Of a DNA stretch of 49,146 bases, positions 22,651 through 44,210 are shown piece by piece. The stretch lies in the NCBI GenBank assembly GCA_021813445.1, contig JAKAKP010000022.1, positions 1 to 49,146 on the forward strand. Reading direction: 5' to 3'. The notes beneath the pieces were generated by a model that made no database searches, was not told the origin of the DNA, and saw only the letters and a program-made list of their open reading frames with translations. This stretch comes from Deltaproteobacteria bacterium. GTDB lineage: Bacteria; Desulfobacterota; Desulfobaccia; Desulfobaccales; 0-14-0-80-60-11. The position numbers and the translations under genes are program-made. Every line of letters begins with the position of its first letter. Position 1 is the stretch's first letter.

Positions 22651-22848
22651 ATACCGAGTTGCAATCTAACGGCAATTTTATGTAGGGGCGGACCCATGTG
22701 TCCGCCCTTGCGTCCGCAAATAAAACTGCGTTAATTTTATGAACCTAGGTTATTTTTTGAGACTGAAGGATTGTGTTTTTGCGAGCGTCCAGGGGGCACA
22801 CCCGGGTGCCCCCCTACAAATCCACATCGTTAGATTGCAGCTCGGTAT
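22651..22848. mobile_element. Candidate MITE with 20-bp terminal inverted repeats
   Basis: The left end ATACCGAGTTGCAATCTAAC (22651-22670) and right end GTTAGATTGCAGCTCGGTAT (22829-22848) are complementary at 19 of 20 positions. Inner palindromes follow: GGGGCGGACCC/TGTCCGCCC (22684-22707) and GGGGGCACACCCGGGTGCCCCC near 22790-22813. The element is 198 bp and has no ORF. No clear target-site duplication is visible. Confidence 0.65.
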
Positions 22849-42609: not shown

Positions 42610-42624
42610 CGGAACCTACATGCT

Positions 42625-42830
42625 TCCTCCCCCTTTGAAAAAGGGGGAAGGGGGGATTTGGGTGCGTACCAACTCCAAGACGGTGTGGTTCATGAGGATT
42701 TAGCAGGTGTGCAAGAGATTCCGCACAGGCTGGAAAGCATGTGCTACCGCTCTTTCACAACCTTGAACTTTGAACTTTCGGAAGCGATTCTTTGGTCTTT
42801 GCTGATAGCTGACAGCTGAAAGCTGAGGGC
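42625..42830. repeat. Mixed repeat cluster before cbiET
   Basis: CCCCCTTTGAAAAAGGGGG palindrome (42625-42660), heptamer units ACCTTGAACTTTGAAC (42758-42778) and a CTGATAGCTGACAGC unit (42798-42830). The last unit ends just before the cbiET start. Confidence 0.75.
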
Positions 42831-42836
42831 TGTGAC

Positions 42837-44126
42837 ATGATTCCTGTACAGGTAATCGGTCTGGGCATGTCCCCATCGGACTTGACGCCTGGGGCTTGGG
42901 AGATCATTCGGCAGGCCCAGGTGCTGGTAGGCGGGCGGCGCCTGCTGGGCTATTTCCCGGAGCATCCGGCCCGGAAGATCGTCCTGGGGAAGGACCCGGA
43001 GGCCGCGCTGGCCCAAATCCCGGCCCTGGCCGCGGACCAAAGAGTGGTGGTACTGGCCTCCGGCGACCCCCTCTTCTACGGGGTGGGACCCCTGGTGGTC
43101 AAGGTCCTGGGGACTGAGGCGGTGGTCATCCACCCCAACCTCACCGCGGTCCAGGCCGCGTGCGCCCGCCTGCAAATGGCCTGGCAGGACACCGAGATCA
43201 TCAGCCTCCACGGCCGCAGCTGGCAGCCCCTGGAAGAGGCCCTGGGCCGGAGGGAGAAGCTGATCATCTACACCGACCCGGAGCATACGCCGGCCGCCAT
43301 CGCCCGGTTTCTCCTGGCCCGGGGGCAAACCGGGGCCAGAATGTGCGTGCTGGAGGACTTGGGCCAGGAAACGGAGCGGGTCGCCTGGCTTAGCCCGGAA
43401 GAGGCCAAAGATCGGGAATTTTCGCCGTTAAATCTAGTGGTGGTTCTGCTGGACCAGGTTGCATTTAATGTAGGGGCGAACCTTGTGTTCGCCCTTCCCG
43501 CTTCGCCCCTGGCCGCGGCTTCGCAACCGCCGGGGACGGCCTGCTTGCACCTGGGGCTGCCGGAAGAGGCCTTGGAACACCAGCGGGGCCTGATCACCAA
43601 GGCCGAAGTCCGGGCCGTGGTCCTGGCCAAGCTGGCGTTGCAGCCCGGTATGGTGCTCTGGGACGTGGGCGCGGGCTGCGGCTCCGTAGGCCTGGAGGCC
43701 AGTCTGCTCCTGCCCGGCGGCCGGATCATAGCGGTAGAGCAACAGGAAGAAAGAGCCGGGCAGATCAAAGCTAATGCCGGGAAATACGGGGTAAGGAATC
43801 TGGAGGTGGTCTGCGGCCTCGCGCCCGGCTGTCTGGCCGGACTGCCCGATCCCCAGCGGGTCTTCATCGGCGGCGGGGGGCAAGATTTGGCGGCCATCCT
43901 GCAAGCCGCCCTGGGCCGCCTGGACCGTGAAGGCCGGGTGGTGATTACCGCTGCACTCCTGGAGACTCTGGAGACGGCCCGGCAGGTTTTTTCGGAAGCG
44001 GGTTGGAATCAAGAGGTAGTCCAGTTGCAGGTGAGCCGGTCTCAGCCCCTGGGAGAAGGGGTGTTCATGCAGGCCCTGAACCCGGTGTGGATAGTTACTG
44101 GCTACGGGGGGCGGCCCGGGATTTAA
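42837..44126 (+). CDS. cbiET: Cobalt-precorrin-7 C5- / 6B C15-methyltransferase fusion CbiET
   Basis: 429 aa, bifunctional CobL-type. Residues about 1-200: CbiE (VIGLGMSPSDLTPGAW, VLASGDPLFYGVG). Residues about 240-429: CbiT class-I methyltransferase with GAGCGSVGLEASLL. It methylates C5 and C15 and decarboxylates the C12 acetate. The junction (residues about 205-235) includes a repeat insertion in frame. ATG 42837 follows repeat DNA. Confidence 0.92.
   Translation: MIPVQVIGLGMSPSDLTPGAWEIIRQAQVLVGGRRLLGYFPEHPARKIVLGKDPEAALAQIPALAADQRVVVLASGDPLFYGVGPLVVKVLGTEAVVIHPNLTAVQAACARLQMAWQDTEIISLHGRSWQPLEEALGRREKLIIYTDPEHTPAAIARFLLARGQTGARMCVLEDLGQETERVAWLSPEEAKDREFSPLNLVVVLLDQVAFNVGANLVFALPASPLAAASQPPGTACLHLGLPEEALEHQRGLITKAEVRAVVLAKLALQPGMVLWDVGAGCGSVGLEASLLLPGGRIIAVEQQEERAGQIKANAGKYGVRNLEVVCGLAPGCLAGLPDPQRVFIGGGGQDLAAILQAALGRLDREGRVVITAALLETLETARQVFSEAGWNQEVVQLQVSRSQPLGEGVFMQALNPVWIVTGYGGRPGI
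43469..43494. repeat. Palindromic repeat module in frame inside cbiET
   Basis: TGTAGGGGCGAACCTTGTG with GTTCGCCC closes as GGGCGAAC/GTTCGCCC. It matches the module at 22681-22707 of the inverted-repeat element (TGTAGGGGCGGACCC with TGTCCGCCC). It encodes part of NVGANLVFALPAS in the CbiE-CbiT linker. Confidence 0.75.
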
Positions 44127-44136
44127 CGGAGTCACC

Positions 44137-44210
44137 AAAATCCCCCAAAATCCCCCTTTTGCAAAGGGGGACATTAACCCCCTTGGTGAAAGGGAGCAGG
44201 GGGGCTTTTT
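44137..44210. repeat. CCCCCTTTTGCAAAGGGGG repeat pair
   Basis: Two palindromes in the gap between cbiET and cbiF (44127-44301), same family as 28465. Confidence 0.8.

Follow-up and report, generated by a model that had tools for sequence, protein, structure and literature searches.

Comparative sequence analysis leads us to conclude, with a probability of about 0.93, that an inverted dimer of a GTAG-tagged REP in a MITE-like form was inserted into the cobalamin biosynthesis gene cbiET within a single genus of Deltaproteobacteria and is translated in the linker between the two domains of the enzyme. The copy of cbiET considered here lies in a contiguous stretch of 49,146 nucleotides (hereafter the window), which belongs to genome G000. 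The complete dimer is present in three congeners and absent from two others and from all outgroup genera, which argues for insertion of a palindrome in the genus and its subsequent translation.

The gene (42837..44126, + strand) encodes fused CbiE-CbiT, precorrin-6Y C5,15-methyltransferase, in an intact frame of 429 amino acids. Its neighbors are cbiC, cbiL, cbiD, cbiF, cbiG, cbiH and cobQ, and the cobalamin operon is intact. As the gene is placed among cobalamin genes and encodes the single CbiET of the genome, the frame almost certainly represents a working gene. In a profile search of the complete protein, the CbiE match covered residues 6–203 (TIGR02467, E 3.8e-57) and the CbiT match began at about residue 240, while alignments with solved CbiT structures begin at residue 239; the CbiT domain thus spans residues ~239–424. 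The REP-derived insert is therefore located in the interdomain linker, i.e., in residues 204–238 (43446..43550, + strand). Further short repeats flank the gene at 42621–42660, 42718–42750 and 44140–44207; they comprise inverted repeats of the CCCCCTTTTTCAAAGGGGGA type and a GCACAGGCTGGAAAGCATGTGCTAC hairpin that resembles a further GTAG-REP family.

The linker region contains an intact REP module, GTAGGGGCGAACCTTGTGTTCGCCC (43470..43494, + strand), that forms the first arm of the element. It consists of a GTAG foot, an 8-bp stem (GGGCGAAC/GTTCGCCC) and a CTTGT loop, such that the GTAG foot is directly followed by a short palindrome with a 5-nt loop, as is characteristic of GTAG-REP elements (palindromes of 20–40 nt). 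The module is read in frame as (N)VGANLVFA (CbiET residues 212–220); the peptide segment across the insert is NVGANLVFALPASPLAAASQPPGTACLHLGLPEEALEHQR. When the module pattern was searched for, this site was the sole match in the window, and 100 shuffles yielded 0 matches. The hairpin formed by the single arm has a calculated RNA folding energy of −13.0 kcal/mol (z −3.1). Upstream of the module, CCAGGTTGCATTTAAT (43454..43469, + strand) is a degenerate trace of the terminal inverted repeat of the element, CCAAGTTGCAATCAAA, and its distance to the module is 12 nt shorter than in relatives, in line with a 12-nt deletion upstream of the module. Downstream, codon alignment identifies TTCGCCCCTG (43502..43511, + strand) as the remnant of the second, inverted arm, which is complete in the orthologues from G003 and G005. 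The window copy of cbiET hence comprises one intact arm plus a remnant of the other. An earlier note on this DNA, prepared from the letters alone, had reported an in-frame module in the CbiE–CbiT linker at 43469–43494; the module is real and extends from 43470 to 43494, but half of the element escaped that first reading: what relatives have at this site is the whole inverted dimer, accompanied by terminal-repeat traces.

The 25-mer found in cbiET, which we term family A, occurs in 48 exact copies on both strands of the genome and in 86 copies when up to two mismatches are allowed, with 0 matches for the reversed pattern as a control. A total of 34 head-to-head dimers were collected, and in 33 of these the arms are separated by a spacer of 8–11 nt. 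A subset of the copies has a terminal repeat, ATACCAAGTTGCNATCAAA, 28–30 nt outside the module: with up to four mismatches it accompanies 22 of 84 copies as compared to 20 of 3000 random places, and 18 of the 22 show the distance of 28–30 nt. The full form of the family A element amounts to ~122 bp and has the terminal inverted repeats and the non-coding interior of a MITE, the repeats being degenerate at cbiET. At least 6 of the 86 modules reside inside genes backed by profiles or orthologues (cbiET, an addA-like gene, a heptosyltransferase gene and the REP transposase gene, RAYT). Numerous other long open frames that cover modules were disregarded, since they are either spurious or result from start codons extended too far upstream. 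All seven genomes of the genus contain the repeat, as do a few from the same family and order, whereas the 30 genomes examined outside the order have no copy. A phage collection gave no match, and a scan of genome contigs gave a single relative, a groundwater Deltaproteobacteria MAG.

The earlier note had also equated the cbiET module with one at 22681–22707. This could not be upheld beyond a family resemblance; the true relatives of the cbiET module are found elsewhere in the genome. In both modules, the GTAG is located directly at the foot of the hairpin. The module at 22682–22707, GTAGGGGCGGACCCATGTGTCCGCCC, belongs to a different 26-nt family of the GGACCC type (family B, 52 pattern matches in the genome) and is several substitutions and one indel apart in an alignment, such that both pattern and alignment rule it out as a member of the same family and as the source of the cbiET insert. 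It is part of a 198-bp intergenic MITE-like element (22651..22848, + strand) with 21-nt terminal inverted repeats. A 51-nt stretch of this element (ATTGTGTTTTTGCGAGC...CCCCCCTACAA) shares 90% identity with the central part of the RAYT gene on contig C25, and the element also carries the REP of that RAYT's family. It thus resembles a derivative of the C25 RAYT locus that has undergone internal deletion.

In order to trace the insert, we compared the linkers of 30 CbiET proteins, 24 of them from outside the genus, with length counted between the conserved SPLN and ITK motifs. Outside the genus, linkers comprise 35–53 residues in 23 proteins and 60 residues in the other, and the repeat is found in none of the 24. 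It is likewise absent from the congeners G001 (40 residues) and G004 (50 residues), although the linker of the latter might be a deletion remnant. G006, G003 and G005 have linkers of 65, 75 and 81 residues, respectively, and contain the complete dimer in frame, translated as NVGVNLVFTQEAGRTPDSPL, NVGANLVFAPDVGRIQGSPL and DVGANLVFTLDVGRTQGSPL. Linker length ranges from 60 to 81 residues among insert carriers and from 35 to 81 residues across relatives. In the cbiET genes of G003, G005 and G006, a GTTGCAGCTAAA-like sequence is located at −28 from the module, the same offset as that of the terminal repeat in genomic MITE copies, and in the genus members carrying it the DNA of the insert agrees with the genome-wide repeat. 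Orthologues lacking the element encode a shorter but otherwise alignable protein, and this applies to cbiET as well as to the addA-like and heptosyltransferase genes. The alignment of relatives, which the earlier note had proposed as a check, confirms the in-frame palindrome, and the peptide did not reappear with different codons in distant proteins: none of the 24 aligned CbiET from other genera contains it, nor do those of two congeners. The statement that the site is direct evidence of a palindrome turned into coding sequence without frame loss holds when the full dimers and the empty sites of the relatives are taken into account, whereas the window alone shows one arm.

A tree calculated for the CbiET core protein supports the genus (96/92) and the grouping of G000 with G006 (98/95) and leaves the other four genus members unordered. 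A single gain followed by losses and two or more gains are therefore both possible. Because the flanks have decayed, neither an exact junction nor a target-site duplication can be defined for the cbiET insert, and there is no exact empty site for this gene. The course of events that we propose starts with a REP inverted dimer with short terminal repeats that entered cbiET in the genus and landed between the CbiE and CbiT codons, in a linker tolerant of length change. Both arms lack stop codons in the frame taken, so that the gene stayed open and the palindrome is read as VGANLVFA...GRTQGSPL. Later decay in the window lineage spared the first arm, reduced the second to a remnant and removed 12 nt upstream. 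Mobilization is attributed, conditionally, to a RAYT whose gene carries, and is flanked by, the family A REP.

The same insertion was encountered in frame in two further genes, each with empty relatives for comparison. One is addA-like (UvrD_C and PDDEXK_1 domains) and carries VGANLVFAQRLGRTQGSPLQK in frame in the genome of the window; versions of the insert are present in G002 and G003 and a remnant, GACGTAGGGG, in G005, while the genes of G001, G004, G006 and other genera are devoid of it. The other encodes a GT9 heptosyltransferase; its dimer is complete in G003, and a single arm is present in G000. At about position 1440–1530 of locus L033 (contig C66 of G000), one arm of the REP dimer in the heptosyltransferase gene has been swapped for a different palindrome, GGGACCAACCCTGGGTTGGCCC, resulting in a mosaic element. 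All three host genes use the same reading frame across the element. A stop at GTAG closes one of the three forward frames of the element core, while the remaining two are open; filtering by stop codons would therefore be only part of the reason for the shared frame.

The genome of the window contains RAYT genes (Y1_Tnp). The RAYT gene on contig C108 is preceded by a family A REP, contains two arms of this family in frame and is thus a cognate RAYT flanked by the same REP family; the picture is the same in G001, G003 and G004. The same arrangement holds for family B and the RAYT gene on C25, while the RAYT gene on C30 is flanked by a third family. Given this association, RAYT (TnpA_REP) is the likeliest vehicle for the spread of the REP core. 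GTAG hairpins are present inside the frame in 17 of 19 RAYT frames from relatives. They are mostly located between the HuH and Tyr motifs, and flanking REPs, where seen, are generally of the same type. As controls, codon-shuffled RAYT frames gave 0 hits and 30 CbiET frames gave 3, all of them insert carriers. REPs placed in frame between HuH strand and Tyr helix, here of many REP types within one order (RAYT frames L147, L148, L149, L150, L151, L162, L152–L157, L160, L166–L169), are a published feature of subclass 2.4 (PMC6006769), and we rejected them as a novelty. On contig C25, one open frame (L073:1117–2175) joins a RAYT to a YraN/UPF0102 protein via an in-frame REP at L073:1799; a REP-mediated gene fusion and two adjacent genes in one open frame are both possible.

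That an IS with ends similar to the element's terminal repeats, and not a RAYT, moved the insert is conceivable but less likely. It would fit the observation that many contigs of the genome end in a repeated element whose end, ATACCAAGTTGCCATCTAA, is close to the MITE terminal repeat. Most family A dimers, however, lack such a terminal repeat, the body of the IS is missing from the assembly, and a DDE_3 search for an IS630-type transposase was negative, which speaks against a transposase of this type as the mover. As most dimers are without the terminal repeat, the REP core spreads without it, while the resemblance of the repeats to the ends of the unassembled IS suggests that an IS may have moved the MITE form. 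In G000, ~24 contigs break inside this high-copy IS (e.g., C1:1–125 and C113:1–125), the transposase of which was not assembled; its end was matched only in G000, G008 (91%) and G023 (75%). Chance or convergence, i.e., a linker encoding a normal conserved peptide that resembles the repeat, can be dismissed for practical purposes: the stretch is open coding sequence with normal codons, but the 25-nt match is exact to 48 genome copies where 0 are expected, and congeners have the full palindrome, which CbiET from other genera lack. The complete dimers of G003, G005 and G006 refute a chance resemblance.

We consider it improbable that the cbiET element is kept as a working nucleic-acid hairpin with a REP function in mRNA or DNA, or that gene conversion or re-insertion homogenizes it repeatedly, instead of its decaying as neutral sequence. 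A comparison of G000 with G003 shows a single difference among the 27 bases of the nine module codons, as against 39% divergence at four-fold sites in the rest of cbiET, and none of 316 nine-codon windows is as conserved as the module; moreover, the first arm is perfect in the window copy despite its decayed surroundings, and the stem in G006 has T-A in place of C-G. In the other five species pairs, however, the module is ordinary, with 66–110 of about 316 windows equally conserved, a stem pair is broken in G005, the second arm is lost in G000, and the 121-nt region around the insert folds no better than shuffles (z −0.5). Pairwise windows and folding thus do not support the view that the hairpin is generally conserved in cbiET, and the near identity of G000 and G003, being one pair of six, hints weakly at homogenization or hairpin upkeep. 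A dual use of the cbiET copy, as translated linker and as working REP hairpin at the nucleotide level (RAYT target or RNA element), would explain both this near identity and the perfect first arm amid decay; all the same, we regard it as distinctly improbable. Adoption of the inserted peptide for a new role in CbiET, e.g., coupling of the two domains, is very improbable. Four species whose cbiET genes otherwise differ at about 17–24% of nucleotides have kept the insert, but linker length varies from 60 to 81 residues among these carriers, two congeners lack the insert, most outgroups work with linkers of 35–53 residues, and the same peptide occurs in unrelated proteins. The effect of the inserted dimer is most likely a near-neutral lengthening of a permissive linker.

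GTAG-REPs inside open reading frames without frame loss have been described as giving rise to “REP-decorated proteins”, often as dimers coding for 20–30 amino acids, with DNA repair genes (recBCD, UvrD) among the intragenic targets (Di Nocera et al. 2013; PMC3733652). The elements reported here are alike in their GTAG-tagged hairpins, inverted dimers and position within genes, and the addA-like target parallels recBCD/UvrD; they differ in that Desulf- taxa are not named in that text, and in that the host is cbiET, with gain and decay traceable across congeners. REPs in frame inside tnpA_REP (RAYT) genes, between the HuH and Tyr motifs of TnpA_Y1 subclass 2.4, were reported by Corneloup et al. 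(2018; PMC6006769), who proposed that they are tolerated in flexible linkers or loops. This feature concerns the transposase gene and matches the RAYTs found here, not cbiET itself. REPINs and BIMEs (Bertels and Rainey 2011; PMC3116915) share the inverted REP doublet with its long hairpin, taken as the mobile unit, whereas the REPs analyzed there were extragenic and the cbiET copy is coding, with spacers of 8–11 nt and partly added terminal repeats in its family. Rickettsia palindromic elements (RPE, cited in PMC3733652) are palindromic repeats in frame in functional protein genes, yet they are CGTC-tagged according to PMC3733652 while the cbiET family is GTAG-tagged and RAYT-associated. As in-frame REPs in unrelated genes and in RAYT genes have both already been published, the cbiET case opens no new class of system and is a well-resolved new example. 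It allows the gain, persistence and decay of a translated palindromic repeat to be followed comparatively in a core metabolic gene, with parallels in two further genes of the genus, and supports the published notion that flexible linkers accommodate REP elements without harm and that proteins can become longer in this way.
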